A stretch of DNA of 64,000 nt, taken from NCBI RefSeq assembly GCF_000503055.1, contig NZ_AYVY01000012.1, positions 1 through 64,000 on the forward strand. The letters run 5' to 3'. Shown here in pieces: positions 3,144 through 14,546 of this stretch (the first letter of the stretch is position 1; each line of letters starts with the position of its first letter). A model generated the notes under the pieces. The model saw only the letters and a list, made by a program, of their open reading frames with translations. It made no database searches and was not told the DNA's origin. This DNA is from Mesorhizobium sp. LSHC420B00. GTDB taxonomy: Bacteria > Pseudomonadota > Alphaproteobacteria > Rhizobiales > Rhizobiaceae. Position numbers and translations under genes: made by a program.

Positions 3144-3217
3144 GAGAAAACATGGTTTCAGCCACTGCATGGCGTCCGGGCCGGTGCAGCGGTTGGAACG
3201 AGCCAAGCCGACGCCGG

Positions 3218-8643: not shown

Positions 8644-9672
8644 TCAGCGGATCGGCGGAGCGTATTGCAGGCCACCCTTGGTCCACAACGCGTTGATGCC
8701 GCGCGCGATCTTCAGCGGGCTGCCCGAACCGACATTGCGTTCGAACATTTCGCCGTAGTTGCCAACTGCTTTGACGATGTTGACGACCCAGTCGTTGGAG
8801 ACGCCGAGATCGGTGCCGATCTTGGTGTCGGCTTCCTGGCCGAGCACGCGCTTGATCTCAGGATTGTCCGAGTTCTTCATCTCGTCGACATTAGCCTGGG
8901 TGATGCCCAGTTCCTCGGCCTGCAACAGCGCAAAGTAGGTCCACTTGACGATGTGGTACCACTGGTCGTCACCCTGGCGCACGGCCGGGCCGAGCGGTTC
9001 CTTGGAGATGATCTCGGGCAGCACGACATGGTCGGCCGGCGCGCTGAGCGTCAGGCGGATGCCGTAGAGACCCGACTGGTCGGTGGTGTAGACGTCGCAG
9101 CGGCCGGCGTCATAGGCGGCGTTGACCTCATCCAGCTTTTCGAAGACGACGGGGTTGTATTCCATCTTGTTCGCCTTGAAGTAGTCGGCGAGATTGAGCT
9201 CGGTCGTGGTGCCGCTCTGCACGCAGACCGCCGCGCCCGAAAGCTGCAGCGCCGAATTGACGCCCGGCAGTTTCTTGGCGTTGATCATGAAGCCCTGACC
9301 GTCATAATAGGTGACGCCGACGAAGTTCAGGCCAAGTGCCGTATCGCGGTTGATGGTCCAGGTGGTGTTGCGCGACAGGATGTCGACCTCGCCCGACTGC
9401 AGCGCGGTGAACCGCTCCTTGGCGCTGAGCGGCGTGAATTTGACTTTGGTGCCATCGCCGAAGACGGCGGCCGCCACGGCGCGGCAGAAATCCACATCGA
9501 TGCCTTTCCATTCACCCTTGTCGTCCGGCGCCGCGAAGCCAGCAAGACCTGTGTTGGTGCCGCACTGGATGAAGCCTTTCGCCTTGACGTCGTCGAGCGT
9601 GCTCGCGGATGCGGCCGAAGCCGCGAATCCAAACGCGGCGGCGCCCAAAACGCCGATTGCAATGTGTTTCAT
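8644..9672 (-). CDS. aapJ: General L-amino acid ABC transporter, periplasmic binding protein AapJ
   Basis: A 342-residue secreted protein. A Sec signal (MKHIAIGVLGAAAFGFAAS, cleavage after ASAAS-AS or close by) leads into STLDDVKAKGFIQCGTNTGL, the SBP family-3 fold used for polar amino acids. DVDFCRAVAAAVFGD and FTALQSGEVDILSRNTTWT carry the conserved ligand-binding region. It is the first gene of aapJQMP and binds a wide spectrum of L-amino acids. The operon promoter lies in the 436 bp between this start and metC. Confidence 0.95.
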   Translation of the reverse strand: MKHIAIGVLGAAAFGFAASAASASTLDDVKAKGFIQCGTNTGLAGFAAPDDKGEWKGIDVDFCRAVAAAVFGDGTKVKFTPLSAKERFTALQSGEVDILSRNTTWTINRDTALGLNFVGVTYYDGQGFMINAKKLPGVNSALQLSGAAVCVQSGTTTELNLADYFKANKMEYNPVVFEKLDEVNAAYDAGRCDVYTTDQSGLYGIRLTLSAPADHVVLPEIISKEPLGPAVRQGDDQWYHIVKWTYFALLQAEELGITQANVDEMKNSDNPEIKRVLGQEADTKIGTDLGVSNDWVVNIVKAVGNYGEMFERNVGSGSPLKIARGINALWTKGGLQYAPPIR

Positions 9673-10108
9673 GACCCACAGACCCTTTTCTGTTTTTTCC
9701 AGGCGAACCTGACTTTTTCCCGTGTGAACGCAGCTTCGTATCCCGGCCCATTACCGGAATCCCGCATCGTAACCGACGCGCTGTCTCCCATTCACGAACA
9801 ACATCGAAGGCGATTATTCCTGTGAGGTCAAGGGAAATGACCAAATCCGAAAGACTTTGAAAACCAACTGGCTGAAATGCCTGAATCGCAGACAAACGCG
9901 CCCGCAAATCGGTCAACGCGCCGATAAAGCCGGCAAAATCCGATCGCGCCTTCCCGACCGCGACTTCCCGACCGCGCCGGGCGCCCTGCGGATCTACGGC
10001 GCATTGCTGAATTGGCATATTCAAGACCTTTGCCTGGCGAGTGCGGTGCGGTTGCGCGGCCAATGCCGCCGCACTATGGCTAACGACCTACTCACGGGAC
10101 GAAATGCA
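9673..10108. other. Divergent intergenic region between aapJ and metC
   Basis: 436 bp with no convincing gene. The frame open upstream of metC from 9857 is not supported by family length. The stretch must hold the aapJ promoter (minus strand) and the metC promoter (plus strand). I could not recognise a SAM-responsive riboswitch or a clear operator. Confidence 0.5.
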
Positions 10109-11278
10109 ATGGCAAAAGACGGCAGCGAGATGGGCATCAACACGCGGCTCGCCCATTCCGGCAACAACCCGCATGACTATTTCGGCTTCGTCAACCCGCC
10201 GGTGGTGCATGCCTCGACCGTGCTTTATCCCAACGCGGCGGCGATGGCTTCACGCAGCCAGAAATACACCTACGGAACGCGGGGCACGCCGACCACCGAT
10301 GCGCTGAACAGCGCGATCGATGCGCTGGAAGGCTCTGCGGGCACGGTCGCGGTTCCATCGGGCCTGGCGGCGGTGACGCTGCCGCTGCTCGCCTTCCTGT
10401 CGGCCGGCGATCATCTGCTGATCGTCGATTCCGTCTATCACCCGACCCGCAATTTCGCCGACACGATGCTGAAGCGGCTGGGCATCGAGGTCGAGTATTA
10501 CGAACCGCGCATCGGCGCCGGCATCGCGGCGCTGATCAAGCCCAACACCAGGGTGGTGTTCACCGAATCGCCGGCCTCCAACACTTTCGAGGTGCAGGAC
10601 ATACCGGCCATCGCCAAGGCAGCGCATGCCGCCGGCGCCATCGTCATGATGGACAACACATGGGCGACGCCGCTCTACTTCCGCCCGCTCGACCATGGCG
10701 TCGACATCTCGATCCATGCGGCGACGAAATACCCGGCCGGCCATTCCGACGTGCTGCTCGGCACGGTCTCGGCCAACGCAGCCTGCTGGAAGCAGCTTTG
10801 CGAGACGTTCAACACGATGGGATGCTGCGCCGGGCCGGATGACGTCTACCAGGTGCTGCGCGGCCTGCGCACAATGGGCGTGCGGCTGGAGCACCATCAA
10901 AAGAGCGCGCTTGCCCTCGCCGGCTGGCTGGAGGGCCAGCCGGGCGTGGCGCAGGTGCTGCATCCGGGGCTGCCCAGCCATCCCGACCACGTTTTGTGGA
11001 AGCGCGATTTTTGCGGATCGAGCGGCATCTTCTCTATCGTCCTTGCAGGCGGCGGACAGAAGCAGCAGCACGCCTTCCTCGACGCGTTGAAGTTTTTTGG
11101 CCTCGGCTATTCCTGGGGCGGCTATGAGAGCCTTGCCGTGCCGGTACTCCTGGGCGACCGTACCGTCGCCAAGGGCCCGTATGACGGACCGCTGGTGCGC
11201 CTGCAGATCGGGCTCGAGGATGTCGAGGATTTGAAGGCCGACCTGGCGCGCGGGCTGGCGGCGGCCGCAGAGGCCTGA
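10109..11278 (+). CDS. metC: Cystathionine beta-lyase
   Basis: A 389-residue PLP enzyme of the Cys/Met metabolism family that splits cystathionine to homocysteine, pyruvate and ammonia. KYTYGTRGTPTTDALNSAID near residue 52, the Asp that holds the pyridine ring in IVMMDNTWATPL (about 175), and the Schiff-base lysine in SIHAATKYPAGHSDVL (about 198). The C-terminal SLAVPVLL is typical of MetC/CBL rather than MetB. ATG at 10109 follows GGGACGA and fits family length; an in-frame ATG at 10076 is an alternative. Divergent from aapJ. Confidence 0.9.
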   Translation: MAKDGSEMGINTRLAHSGNNPHDYFGFVNPPVVHASTVLYPNAAAMASRSQKYTYGTRGTPTTDALNSAIDALEGSAGTVAVPSGLAAVTLPLLAFLSAGDHLLIVDSVYHPTRNFADTMLKRLGIEVEYYEPRIGAGIAALIKPNTRVVFTESPASNTFEVQDIPAIAKAAHAAGAIVMMDNTWATPLYFRPLDHGVDISIHAATKYPAGHSDVLLGTVSANAACWKQLCETFNTMGCCAGPDDVYQVLRGLRTMGVRLEHHQKSALALAGWLEGQPGVAQVLHPGLPSHPDHVLWKRDFCGSSGIFSIVLAGGGQKQQHAFLDALKFFGLGYSWGGYESLAVPVLLGDRTVAKGPYDGPLVRLQIGLEDVEDLKADLARGLAAAAEA

Positions 11279-11468
11279 GCCAGCACCTTGCCAGACTGAG
11301 TCAGGAATCGGCGTAACAGCCTGGAAACACTGCGATCCTGAGCGGTGTCATGGCGACCGATCAGCCGATGAAGCGGCGTCTACAAAATAGAGACGCCGGC
11401 GTGGCGGAAGCGATAGAATAGCTTCTGCCGGCGCTTGATGCGGATCGAGGCTGGCCGGCGGATCGGTC

Positions 11469-11498
11469 GGGAACCTTTTGTCGGCCGATGCATCCAAT
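11469..11498 (+). promoter_or_regulatory. Candidate ECF-type promoter in front of the sigma factor gene
   Basis: GGGAAC, 16 bases, then CATCCAAT. The same 30 bp layout (GGGAAC-N-TTTT-N9-TGCATCCAAT) recurs at 12220-12249 in front of the next gene with identical spacing. The 16 bp spacing between GGGAAC and CATCCA is that of ECF promoters. It ends 32 bp before the sigma gene start, so it suggests autoregulation. Confidence 0.6.
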
Positions 11499-11530
11499 AT
11501 CCCGATGAGAAGCCTATCAGGAGATCGCCA

Positions 11531-12202
11531 ATGCCGGCTGTGTTGACGGCAACGTCCGCCGCTTCCGGCGACATGCAGCTTGTCGGCCGCGCGCTGGCAC
11601 GCGATGGCGATGCATTCCGCACCATCATCAAGACGCACAACCAGAGGCTCTACCGCATCGCCCGCGGCGTTGTGCGCAACGACAGCGAGGCCGAGGACAT
11701 CGTCCAGGAGGCCTATGTCAGGGCGTTTGCCCACCTCGAGGCCTTTCGTGGCGATGCCTCGCTCGCCACGTGGCTGTCGCGTATCGTCATCAACGAAGCG
11801 CTCGGCCGCTTGCGCAAAAGGCGGCGAATGGTGGCGATACCTGAAAATCCGCAAGCCGAAATCATCCGGTTTCCCCTCAACCCGAGCGACGATCCGGAGC
11901 GGACGATGGCGCAACGGCAGATCCTTGAGCTTGTCGAACGGGCAACCGACAGTCTTCCCGATGTCTACCGGCTGGTGTTCGTGGCGCGAGTCATCGAGGG
12001 GCTGAGCATCGAGGAGACCGGCGAACTGCTTGGCGTGCGACCAGAAACCATCAAGACCCGGCTGCACCGCGCTCGTGCGCTGGTACGCAAGGCGCTGGAC
12101 GACCAGATCGGCCCGGTGCTGCTCGACGCGTTTCCGTTCGCGGGCCGGCGCTGTGAACGGCTGACCAATGCCGTGATGCAGCGGCTTGGTCTTTCCGGAT
12201 AG
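11531..12202 (+). CDS. ECF-family RNA polymerase sigma factor
   Basis: A 223-residue sigma-70 group-4 protein with only regions 2 and 4. Region 2 includes RLYRIARGVVRNDSEAEDIV and FRGDASLATWLSRIVINEAL; region 4 includes LPDVYRLVFVARVIEGLSIE and the helix-turn-helix GVRPETIKTRLHRARALV. ATG at 11531 follows AGGAGA and removes an unsupported 32-residue extension. No anti-sigma gene lies beside it. It is followed by the DUF4142 and cupredoxin genes, preceded by a copy of the same promoter motif, so these are its likely targets. Confidence 0.9.
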   Translation: MPAVLTATSAASGDMQLVGRALARDGDAFRTIIKTHNQRLYRIARGVVRNDSEAEDIVQEAYVRAFAHLEAFRGDASLATWLSRIVINEALGRLRKRRRMVAIPENPQAEIIRFPLNPSDDPERTMAQRQILELVERATDSLPDVYRLVFVARVIEGLSIEETGELLGVRPETIKTRLHRARALVRKALDDQIGPVLLDAFPFAGRRCERLTNAVMQRLGLSG

Positions 12203-12219
12203 GTCGCGTCGATTTTCGC

Positions 12220-12249
12220 GGGAACGTTTTCCGGCGACCTGCATCCAAT
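12220..12249 (+). promoter_or_regulatory. Candidate ECF-type promoter in front of the DUF4142 gene
   Basis: Second copy of GGGAAC-N-TTTT-N9-TGCATCCAAT, matching 11469-11498 at every fixed position and in spacing. It lies 57 bp before the DUF4142 start. The two-copy match in a 0.8 kb region argues that the sigma factor encoded between them recognises it. Confidence 0.6.
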
Positions 12250-12306
12250 GAGCATCACTGAAAACGAAGCCCGATGCAGCTCGGCGTCGGGGCGAAGGAG
12301 AGCATC

Positions 12307-12831
12307 ATGTTTATTCGATCGACCACGGCACTGGCCGCATTTTTCCTGCTTAGCGCAGCGCCCTTGTCGCAAGCTGCCGACAAGCCGACCGATCCGCAGA
12401 TCGCACATATCGCCTACACAGCGGGCGTGCTTGACGTCGAGGCGGCCAAGCAGGCGCTGCAGAAATCGAAAAACAAAGAGGTCGTAGATTTCGCCAAGGA
12501 CATGGTGCGGGATCACGAGGCCGTCAACAAACAGGCTCTCGACCTGGTCAAGAAGCTCAAGGTCACGCCTGAGGACAATCCGACCAGCAAAGCGCTGACC
12601 AAGGCGGCGGCCGAGGAACGTGCCAAGCTTGCCAAGCTCAAGGGCGCGGCGTTCGACAAGGCCTATGTCGCCAGCGAGGTGGCCTACCACAAGCAGGTCA
12701 ATGGCGCGCTCGAAACTCTGCTGATCCCGTCGGCCGGCAATGCCGAGCTGAAGAGCCTGCTGGAAACCGGCCTGAAAATATTCCAGGGCCACGAACAGCA
12801 CGCCGAACACGTCGCCGGTATGCTGAAGTGA
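12307..12831 (+). CDS. Exported DUF4142 (ferritin-like) protein
   Basis: A 174-residue periplasmic protein with a Sec signal (about residues 1-23, ending LSQAA-D). The mature part is a helical DUF4142 domain: AHIAYTAGVLDVEAAKQAL, DFAKDMVRDHEAVNKQALDL, AYVASEVAYHKQVNGALETL and FQGHEQHAEHVAGML. DUF4142 is related to ferritin-like four-helix bundles; many members sit in stress regulons, but no activity is established. ATG at 12307 follows AAGGAG. Its stop overlaps an in-frame GTG of the cupredoxin gene, so the two are probably translated together. Confidence 0.85.
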   Translation: MFIRSTTALAAFFLLSAAPLSQAADKPTDPQIAHIAYTAGVLDVEAAKQALQKSKNKEVVDFAKDMVRDHEAVNKQALDLVKKLKVTPEDNPTSKALTKAAAEERAKLAKLKGAAFDKAYVASEVAYHKQVNGALETLLIPSAGNAELKSLLETGLKIFQGHEQHAEHVAGMLK

Positions 12832-12842
12832 GGATCGGGCCA

Positions 12843-13157
12843 ATGGTGTCGAGGCGGCATCTGTGGGTTGCGCTGGCGCTGACCATCGGCGCCGCACCTG
12901 CCAAGGCCGAAACCATTGAGGTGACGATCGACAAGGTTGTGTTTTCGCCGGCAAAGATCGAGGCGAAGGTCGGCGACACGATCAAGTGGGTGAACAAGGA
13001 CGTGTTCGCCCACACGGCAACCGTCAACGGCGGCTGGGAAGTGATGATCCCGCCGAAGCAGGCAGCAAGCCTGATGGTGAAGAAGGCCGAATCGGTCGAT
13101 TATTTCTGCCGCTTCCATCCCAATATGAAGGGCCATGTGACGGTCACATCGCCCTGA
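12843..13157 (+). CDS. Small secreted cupredoxin (amicyanin/plastocyanin-like)
   Basis: A 104-residue protein with a signal peptide ending near APAKA and one cupredoxin domain. The type-1 copper ligands are visible: His in VFAHTATV, then Cys, His and Met in CRFHPNM (C-x2-H-x2-M), as in amicyanin-like proteins. It would carry single electrons or bind copper in the periplasm. ATG at 12843 is used; an in-frame GTG at 12828 overlaps the previous stop (GTGA) and would add five residues. Third gene of the ECF sigma unit. Confidence 0.85.
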   Translation: MVSRRHLWVALALTIGAAPAKAETIEVTIDKVVFSPAKIEAKVGDTIKWVNKDVFAHTATVNGGWEVMIPPKQAASLMVKKAESVDYFCRFHPNMKGHVTVTSP

Positions 13158-13161
13158 CTGG

Positions 13162-13269
13162 CTAATGCATGTCGCGCAAAAGTGTGCAGCGGTTTTGCGA
13201 TAACGCCATGCATTAAACAAGAGCCTAAAGCGCGTCGCATGAGGCCGGTCGAACGCGACGCGCTTTTAG
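13162..13269 (-). repeat. Two-hairpin intergenic repeat, copy 1 (reverse orientation)
   Basis: 108 bp, reverse complement of the elements at 39082-39189 and 51817-51923. One module is a palindrome built on CTAAAGCGCGTCGC...GCGACGCGCTTTAG, the other pairs ATGCATG...CATGCAT around an AAAACCGCTGCACACTTTT core. Its end supplies the TAA stop of the permease gene at 13266. It resembles the mosaic palindromic elements known from rhizobia; I cannot name the family with certainty. Confidence 0.8.
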
Positions 13270-14486
13270 GCCGCCAGCCATGCCGTCCCGACAAGAAGCG
13301 TGACCAGCGTCAATGGCAGGCCAACCTTGAAGAAGGCGATGAAGCCCAGCGGCTTGCCGGAGACCCGCGCGTGCTCGGCAACGATCAGATTGGCGACCGA
13401 GCCGAGCAGCGTGAAATTGCCGGCCAGGGTCGAGCTCATGGCGACGACCAGCCAGGCACGCTCTGGATTCTCCAGGCCGGGTATGAACGGCCGCAGCGCC
13501 AGCACGGCCGGGACGTTGCTCATGATGTTGGACAGCACTGCGGTGAAGCCGGACAGCCGCCAGACATCATTCAGCCCAAGGTCCTTTGCCGAAGCGACGA
13601 TGTCGGGCGTAAGCAGCGTCTTCTCCGCCCCGGCGACGACGATGAAAAGCCCGGCGAACATGAACAGCAGCGGCCCATCGATCTCGCGATAGATGCGCTC
13701 AGGCTTGATGGCGCGGGTCAGCAACAGGATCGCGCCGCCGATCAGCGCAGCTTTGGCAACGGGAACGCCGGCAAAGAAAGCGACCGCCAAACCGATACAG
13801 ACCACCACCGCCTTCAGCACTTGCCCCGGCAGCATGCGACCGCGATAGACTTCGGGGCTAAGCTCGGCCTTGCGCGAAAATTCGGCGCGGTAGACGATGC
13901 GGATGATGACGATGACGGCGACGAGGCCGAACAGGGCCACCGGCGCAAGCGCCGCCGAGAAGGCCGGATAGGAAATCCCCGACAGGGCGCCGATGACCAT
14001 GTTCTGCGGATTGCCGGTGATGGTGGCGACACTGCCGCAATTAGATGCAGTGGCGGTGGCGATCAGATAGGGAACCGGGTTGCGGTTGATGACGCGGGTG
14101 ACATGGACGACGATCGGCGCCATGACCAGGCAGATGGCGTCGTTGACCAGGAATGCCGACAGGACGCCGGTCAACAGCGTCACCATCACCAGCAGCATGA
14201 ATGGCGCATGCGCATGCTCAATGGCGAACCCGCCGAGCGCGCGAAAAGCGCCGGACACTTTCAGATGCGCCACGACGATCATCATGCCGAGCAAAAGCGT
14301 GATGGTGTCGAAGCTGATGGCGCGGTAGGCGTCCTCCATGCTGAGCGCGCCGATGGCGATCATCGCCGCACCGCCGAGCAGCGCGATGCCTGCCCGGTCG
14401 AGGCGCAGCCCTGGTATCCTGCCGATTGCGACGCCGGCATAGGTCAGGACAAGGATCAGCAGTGCCGCCGCGCCCATCGCTGTCAT
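13266..14486 (-). CDS. SLC13/ArsB-type anion permease
   Basis: A 406-residue membrane protein with about ten hydrophobic segments and the ion-transporter superfamily layout: SAFLVNDAICLVMAPIVV and ATASNCGSVATITGNPQNMV in the first half, FTAVLSNIMSNVPAVLAL and STLAGNFTLLGSVANLIVAE in the second. These paired N-D and N-P/N-V loops are typical of ArsB/SLC13/CitMHS permeases. The substrate cannot be read from the sequence; arsenite, sulfate and dicarboxylates are all possible. No ars genes are near. The stop codon lies inside a repeat arm. Confidence 0.8.
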   Translation of the reverse strand: MTAMGAAALLILVLTYAGVAIGRIPGLRLDRAGIALLGGAAMIAIGALSMEDAYRAISFDTITLLLGMMIVVAHLKVSGAFRALGGFAIEHAHAPFMLLVMVTLLTGVLSAFLVNDAICLVMAPIVVHVTRVINRNPVPYLIATATASNCGSVATITGNPQNMVIGALSGISYPAFSAALAPVALFGLVAVIVIIRIVYRAEFSRKAELSPEVYRGRMLPGQVLKAVVVCIGLAVAFFAGVPVAKAALIGGAILLLTRAIKPERIYREIDGPLLFMFAGLFIVVAGAEKTLLTPDIVASAKDLGLNDVWRLSGFTAVLSNIMSNVPAVLALRPFIPGLENPERAWLVVAMSSTLAGNFTLLGSVANLIVAEHARVSGKPLGFIAFFKVGLPLTLVTLLVGTAWLAA

Positions 14487-14546
14487 GTTTCGGAAATCCT
14501 GTTCGCGACTGGCGAGTGAACCTGTCCGGAATGGACCTGAATTGTT

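Follow-up and report, generated by a model that had tools for sequence, protein, structure and literature searches.

Sinorhizobium meliloti harbours the closest described system, the rpoE8 locus on pSymB. RpoE8 (SMb20592) is assigned to group ECF29, whose published promoter consensus consists of the -35 element GGGAAC and the -10 element GCATCCAA (PMC6180224). One of the two mapped rpoE8 starts was assigned to this ECF29 motif and the other start lacks it; a second motif was noted before SMb20593, where no start was found (PMC6180224). The same paper states that no candidate anti-sigma factor has been identified for the ECF29 group, and that no gene, not even SMb20593, rose when rpoE8 was overexpressed 126-fold in S. 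meliloti (PMC6180224). At the time of that paper, in 2018, the control and the function of ECF29 sigmas were unknown. Expression of rpoE8 is lower in a tolC mutant (PMC2912261). ECF29 is mentioned twice in PMC7730460 and is listed among the sigmas with regulatory extensions, with a mechanism still to be studied (PMC8999054); the main text of PMC3817407 does not mention it. A protein of Azospirillum named RpoE8 heads a different operon (PMC12826043).

Other described sigma systems resemble in part the locus found in the window, i.e. the whole stretch of 64,000 nucleotides of Mesorhizobium sp. LSHC420B00 analysed here. EcfG/RpoE2 (ECF15) shares the -35 GGAAC with the window element, but has another -10, a large regulon (320 genes for RpoE2; PMC6180224) and a partner-switch control (PMC8999054). 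Similar to what is proposed for the window, S. meliloti RpoE1/RpoE4 (ECF26, sulfite response) have small autoregulated ECF regulons, and the targets of RpoE4 likewise include a gene of the cupredoxin type (pseudoazurin SMc04047); unlike in the window, their promoters are of the GGAATA/GT type and transmembrane anti-sigmas are encoded next to them (PMC6180224). In CorE-type and ECF41 sigmas an on-board C-terminal extension replaces the anti-sigma factor, a likeness in the way of working only; the domain of CorE is cysteine-rich and that of ECF41 is of the SnoaL type, whereas the window sigma ends in about 30 residues with one Cys (PMC8999054).

The window encodes the same three genes as the S. 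meliloti pSymB rpoE8 locus, in the same order. The features of the locus are the following.

11469..11498, + strand: P1, putative promoter of the sigma gene, GGGAACCTTTTGTCGGCCGATGCATCCAAT
11469-11474, + strand: P1 -35, GGGAAC
11476-11479, + strand: P1 T-tract
11491-11496, + strand: P1 -10, CATCCA, after a 16-nt spacer
11531..12202, + strand: ECF sigma factor gene, 223 aa, counterpart of S. meliloti RpoE8
12107..12199, + strand: conserved C-terminal extension, sigma codons 193-223, proposed control element
12220..12249, + strand: P2, putative promoter of the DUF4142-cupredoxin unit, GGGAACGTTTTCCGGCGACCTGCATCCAAT
12220-12225, + strand: P2 -35, GGGAAC
12227-12230, + strand: P2 T-tract
12242-12247, + strand: P2 -10, CATCCA
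12307..12831, + strand: DUF4142 gene, 174 aa, counterpart of SMb20593
12843..13157, + strand: cupredoxin gene, 104 aa, counterpart of AmcY

The sigma is 62% identical to RpoE8 of the S. meliloti 1021 pSymB locus over residues 11-220, the DUF4142 protein 81% identical to SMb20593 over residues 25-174, and the cupredoxin 54% identical to AmcY over residues 19-101. The trio thus corresponds to rpoE8, SMb20593 and amcY, which makes the locus a Mesorhizobium member of an already described system; the system is known from S. meliloti, and the Mesorhizobium copy is newly added. The nearest named homologue was a Mesorhizobium MAG, at 97%. The sigma protein possesses a sigma2 domain (residues 33-99), a sigma4 domain (133-183) and a C-terminal extension (about 193-223), and scores 308 bits against NCBIfam PRK11922 (cut-off 204). 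Judged from its sequence, the window sigma is ECF29-type: the extension after sigma4, a trait of ECF29, is present, the neighbourhood is the sigma - DUF4142 - cupredoxin arrangement of this group, and both window copies of the motif match the -35 GGGAAC and the -10 GCATCCAA exactly. The same families were found in the annotated plasmid loci, where the cupredoxin is unlisted in L222 and L227. Membership in two other groups was rejected. ECF15 would have the -10 CGTT, and both window copies carry CATCCA; for ECF26, the -35 is GGGAAC and the next genes encode DUF4142 and cupredoxin proteins, not a transmembrane anti-sigma.

The N-terminus of the DUF4142 protein resembles a signal peptide by eye. 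The cupredoxin gene begins 11 nt after the DUF4142 gene, and His57, Cys89, His92 and Met95 of its product fit a type-1 copper site, as read from the sequence. Both promoter strings given for rpoE8 and SMb20593 in Table 1 of PMC6180224 were found verbatim in the fetched pSymB locus. The S. meliloti rpoE8 locus also has two promoters with a 16-nt spacer and no adjacent anti-sigma gene. It differs from the window in the upstream neighbour, which is acyP in S. meliloti and a MetC-like gene (by eye) in the window, and inspection by eye showed no PhaR-like palindrome ahead of P1. The stretch that separates P1 from the MetC-like gene contains a perfect 7-bp inverted repeat, GGCGTCT-N9-AGACGCC (11375-11397, by eye), which may be a terminator or an operator. 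Just past the cupredoxin gene lies an intergenic repeat, CATGTCGCGCAAAAGTGTGCAGCGGTTTTGCGATAACG (13168-13205), with 22 copies in the genome at up to 3 mismatches and none for the reversed control.

The preliminary description had reported a motif occurring twice with the same spacing, each copy just before a gene, with GGGAAC and CATCCA 16 bp apart as in ECF promoters, and all of this holds. Both copies are present, at 11469 and 12220, with a 16-nt spacer in each, P1 preceding the sigma gene and P2 the DUF4142 gene. From the start of the -35 to the ATG the distance is 62 nt for the sigma gene and 87 nt for the DUF4142 gene, and P2 starts 17 nt past the sigma stop codon. The pattern GGGAAC-N15..18-CATCCA matched twice in the window, compared with a mean of 0.05 and a maximum of 1 in shuffled sequences. 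The search of the whole genome (7.05 Mb, 89 contigs) for GGGAAC-N16-CATCCA, proposed in the preliminary description, returned two exact sites, P1 and P2, and one for the reversed control pattern. The relaxed pattern GGRAAC-N14..18-CATCYA gave 8 sites in the same genome versus 11 for the control. With up to 2 mismatches, GGGAAC-N16-CATCCA gave 475 sites versus 271, an excess that may reflect base composition; weak extra sites may nonetheless be among them. The pattern with the T-tract, GGRAACNTTTN12CATCYA, gave 3 sites at up to 1 mismatch versus 0 for the control, and the third of them (C25:4686), just upstream of an ORF resembling an aldehyde-dehydrogenase C-terminus by eye, is probably a chance match. 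No extra regulon members stand out in this genome in the exact, relaxed and T-tract searches, and its regulon probably comprises these two promoters and three genes. A simple scan of 11200-13300 found no sigma-70-like promoter (0.6 expected) and five terminator-like sites (2.1 expected), and an Rfam search of 9500-14500 gave no match.

The alignment of orthologous clusters, also proposed in the preliminary description, showed the motif conserved before both genes, and its absence before orthologues, which would have spoken against the promoter reading, was not what we found. Upstream regions of 250 bp were scanned with spacers of 14-18, a -10 of CATCCA or CATCTA and at most 1 mismatch, with 20 mononucleotide shuffles per region as control. 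The motif was present before 55/68 sigma homologues (4/1360 shuffled regions) and before 50/51 DUF4142 orthologues (7/1020 shuffled regions). The 68 sigma loci include five picked for a motif match (L149, L150, L151, L156, L157) and five picked for a missing strict motif (L158-L162). Twelve of the thirteen sigma misses correspond to homologues or paralogues less than 67% identical to the window sigma; paralogous or distant sigmas of about 45-67% identity (L069, L073, L075, L077, L078, L083, L149, L151, L153-L155 and L163) have no motif before their own genes. Among the matching sites the hexamers and the T-tract after the -35 are near-invariant, the other spacer positions vary, the spacer is nearly always 16 nt, and the -10 is mostly CATC[CT]A. 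In the 37 chosen sigma upstream regions, only the element, the T-tract and a few scattered positions reach 70% agreement. An apparent GACA...TAGCAT pattern upstream of P1 in aligned Mesorhizobium loci, considered as a conserved operator, was rejected, because by eye it belongs to the 3' end of the preceding coding sequence. Two betaproteobacterial plasmid loci possess both hexamers (CATCTA, CATCCA) with 17-nt spacers and without the T-tract; in Caballeronia and Paraburkholderia perfect hexamers with a 17-nt spacer precede the DUF4142 gene.

Gene order was compared in 73 loci, counting sites with at most 1 mismatch; of the 88 available, the 15 whose retrieval or choice rested on a motif match were set aside. 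Where the sigma gene comes first, the motif was found before the sigma gene in 46/47 loci and before the DUF4142 gene in 47/47, and in divergent loci before both in 3/3. Where the DUF4142 gene comes first with the sigma gene downstream on the same strand, it was found before DUF4142 in 4/4 loci and before the sigma gene in 0/4. Sigma-first loci with a gap of more than 600 nt had it in 2/3 before each gene; in these, GTP-cyclohydrolase-like and Rieske/FAD-reductase-like genes lie between sigma and DUF4142. Loci without DUF4142 in the stretch had it before sigma in 7/16. In all 88 loci the corresponding numbers are 56/57 and 57/57 (sigma first), 3/3 and 3/3 (divergent), 0/6 and 6/6 (DUF4142 first), 2/3 and 2/3 (long gap) and 7/19 (no DUF4142). 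These counts do not represent independent events, given the kinship among the loci and the origin of some of them in a single species. On this comparison, the element acts like a promoter heading each transcription unit. The gene-order comparison gives strong comparative support to the motif as promoter of both units, which the S. meliloti overexpression could not show.

The sigma was searched in 146 Mesorhizobium genomes (the window's own and 145 others), of which 117 gave hits at E <=1.2e-47 and 29 only at E >=3.0e-21, two clearly separated classes, with the threshold set by us; the 117 include G014, G087, G142 and G143, whose only homologue shares 45-51% identity, and G122, among the 29, has a completeness of just 79%. 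The strict motif GGGAACNTTTN12CATCYA was present in 109/117 sigma-positive and 0/29 sigma-negative genomes, and the reversed control in 0/146. The eight sigma-positive genomes without it are G014, G029, G069, G086, G094, G120, G142 and G143. Five of them (G029, G069, G086, G094, G120) carry one-mismatch or T-tract variants, and G014 and G143 possess only the sigma homologue of about 50% identity and a motif variant before a ferritin-like gene. No DUF4142 orthologue was found at E <=1e-15 in any of the 29 sigma-negative genomes, so the module seems to be lost or gained whole; that motif and sigma disappear together is in part self-evident, as the motif lies within the lost cluster. In an even sample of the order, the strict pattern was found in 17/297 genomes and the control in none. 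Eighteen of the 19 new loci from this sample (16 genomes, four of them Mesorhizobium) have sigma and/or DUF4142 within 3 kb; the remaining one, L180, has a globin gene only, and its genome (G336) encodes sigma and DUF4142 elsewhere, at a distance of megabases on the same contig. The sigma was also detected on plasmids, in 219/72,556 records at E 1e-40. Among the strict matches listed, three off-locus ones, in G007, G008 and G032, had no recognisable gene.

That the adjacent sigma reads the P1/P2 pair appears very probable from these comparisons. The autoregulated sigma controlling DUF4142 and cupredoxin genes, as predicted in the preliminary description, gains support at the sequence level from the conservation before orthologues and from the identity with the published ECF29 promoter. 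The sigma would transcribe its own gene from P1 and the downstream DUF4142-cupredoxin operon from P2, and a positive feedback of the sigma would thereby be coupled to the output of two exported proteins, probably metal- or redox-handling. We consider the complete reading, in which both elements are ECF29 promoters serving own-sigma feedback and operon output under extension-based control, to be probable, a judgement that reflects the promoter part more.

The -35 GGAAC is held in common with the general stress sigma EcfG (ECF15), and the element might belong to that regulator instead. The ECF15 promoter -10 consensus is CGTT, whereas both window copies have CATCCA and most orthologue sites CATC[CT]A. 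To our knowledge, EcfG is universal in Mesorhizobium, yet the strict motif is missing from 29/29 genomes without the ECF29 sigma. Of four RpoE2-associated promoters from Table 1, three have CGTT, while the rpoE5 promoter has CATTTCC (PMC6180224). An EcfG site is accordingly very unlikely. A two-part repeat with fixed spacing also fits a DNA-binding regulator, for which the repeat would be an operator or other shared site and not a promoter; however, the element is not palindromic, its distance from the gene that opens each unit varies little, and its sequence is that of the published ECF29 promoter, which accounts for one of the mapped rpoE8 starts (PMC6180224), all of which makes a shared operator extremely improbable.

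The absence of an anti-sigma gene beside the sigma, claimed in the preliminary description, was confirmed: none is found among the window neighbours, and PMC6180224 says likewise for the group. No adjacent anti-sigma was found in the window or in six related plasmid loci with incomplete gene tables. The C-terminal extension of the sigma carries the motif FPFxGxRC (FPFAGRRC in the window sigma), and its Cys208 is the only cysteine of the protein. In a set of 28 chosen homologues, which does not include L070 with its differing tail, F201, F203, G205 and C208 never vary. Cys208 is kept in 65/66 rows, and an FxFxGxxC-like pattern in 84/86, the exceptions being L070 and L169, the latter retaining the Cys. 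The extension is missing in 28/30 distant hits (L081-L110, mostly Paenibacillus) and present in L083 and L084. The distant homologue L079 has the Cys extension and no motif was found in its stretch, so the extension may be structural. The AlphaFold2 model of the sigma (mean pLDDT 78, pTM 0.51) predicts a helix at 206-219 after a poorly predicted linker, with pLDDT <50 at 197-201. Matches to PDB structures cover residues 9-195 only, which says nothing on the presence of the extension; together with the low linker values, the extension is unplaced in structure.

The inert 126-fold overexpression in S. meliloti speaks for gating after translation and weighs against both control by transcription alone and an anti-sigma that could be saturated; on-board control is therefore preferred. 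The part of the missing anti-sigma would be taken by the extension itself, with its flexible linker and a short helix in the FPFxGxRC region. We tentatively propose that sigma activity may be gated after synthesis by the C-terminal extension, a redox or metal signal most likely making contact at Cys208. The conserved cysteine extension offers a single-residue test of the control step.

ECF sigmas typically have an anti-sigma factor, and the sigma might read its promoters while being held by one that is unlinked or unrecognised. With no adjacent candidate such a factor would have to be distant. A small ORF of unknown function follows the sigma gene in two Burkholderiales plasmid loci. The joint absence of sigma and DUF4142 from 29 Mesorhizobium genomes and the occurrence of the sigma on plasmids agree poorly with a need for some remote partner on the chromosome. 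The overexpression should also have swamped a stoichiometric inhibitor, yet no target rose (PMC6180224), and this explanation seems rather doubtful. Alternatively, control could be transcriptional, the sigma being active once made and the loop being started by another regulator (e.g. PhaR/AniA in S. meliloti) or by upstream read-through. PhaR binds the rpoE8-acyP intergenic region by EMSA (PMC12542648), one of the two rpoE8 starts lacks the motif (PMC6180224), and the gene preceding P1 seems, by eye, to end immediately ahead of it in some Mesorhizobium loci. Nevertheless, overexpression alone should then have switched the targets on (PMC6180224), no longer conserved upstream element besides the promoter was found in the 37 aligned loci, and the simple scan of 11200-13300 gave no sigma-70-like promoter, so that purely transcriptional control is unlikely.

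The small proteins encoded after the sigma are at 4677-5132 of L222 and 4824-5069 of L224 (Caballeronia, Paraburkholderia). The C-terminal parts of the two contain cysteine and look similar, and a segment of the Caballeronia protein resembles a membrane span; a local sigma partner is possible.

In relatives, the ECF29 sigma may serve further targets. Other genes were collected with an element of 0 or 1 mismatch and spacers of 15-17, the T-tract being sometimes missing.

folE (GTP cyclohydrolase I): L036, L037, L058, L061, L066, L073, L075
Rieske/FAD-dependent reductase: L054, L080, and L221 at 1 mismatch
bacterial globin: L055, L180
TTHB210-like genes: L073, L077, L083, L151, L166
ferritin-like gene: L154, L155, L163 (GGGAAT variant, 17-nt spacer)
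cytochrome c-type genes: L149, L153, and L209 by the CxxCH motif

Representatives were confirmed with Pfam (folE in L036, reductase in L080, TTHB210-like in L073 and L151, globin in L055, cytochrome c in L149, ferritin-like in L154), and the remaining candidates were named by eye from sequence likeness. Most of the candidate sites are close to a sigma gene, and single 1-mismatch sites can be chance. Two sites are remote: the globin site of G336 is megabases from the sigma on the same contig, and the Rieske/FAD reductase site of G255, with 1 mismatch, is on another contig than the sigma. We found no literature on folE, Rieske reductase or globin as ECF29 targets; the 2021 ECF reclassification, outside this search, may list such neighbours. 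The recurring candidates (folE, Rieske/FAD reductase, globin, TTHB210-like, ferritin-like, cytochrome, DUF4142 and cupredoxin) point to a periplasmic redox/metal stress response and suggest inducers. More broadly, ECF29 sigmas might be one-protein sensors of redox, nitrosative or metal signals, through the C-terminal extension and its near-invariant single cysteine, driving a horizontally mobile periplasmic module from Alpha- to Betaproteobacteria, a generalisation that is speculative and that we hold doubtful. The module would consist of the ferritin-like DUF4142 protein and the cupredoxin; folE, Rieske/FAD reductase, globin and cytochromes would be optional additions.

Several further copies of the motif were observed. 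Mesorhizobium genomes also encode ECF29-like paralogues with no motif before their own genes (L149, L151, L153, L154, L155, L163), and beside these a cytochrome c, TTHB210-like or ferritin-like gene has the motif or a variant. In L036 and L037, from about 3144 downwards on the minus strand, a perfect motif precedes a decayed Rieske-type gene (by eye); L226 has a perfect motif at 3146 on the same strand, with no gene listed behind it on that strand. G076 possesses a third strict copy (L152, 1434-1461), which lies 1.3 kb upstream of the sigma-gene copy and is followed after 228 nt by an HPP/CBS-domain gene. In Shinella (L225) the module is located beside nirK, cbb3 oxidase and Crp/Fnr genes, and in Methylosinus (L227) near a cbb3-type oxidase gene, neighbourhoods that hint at a link to low-oxygen or nitrogen-oxide respiration.
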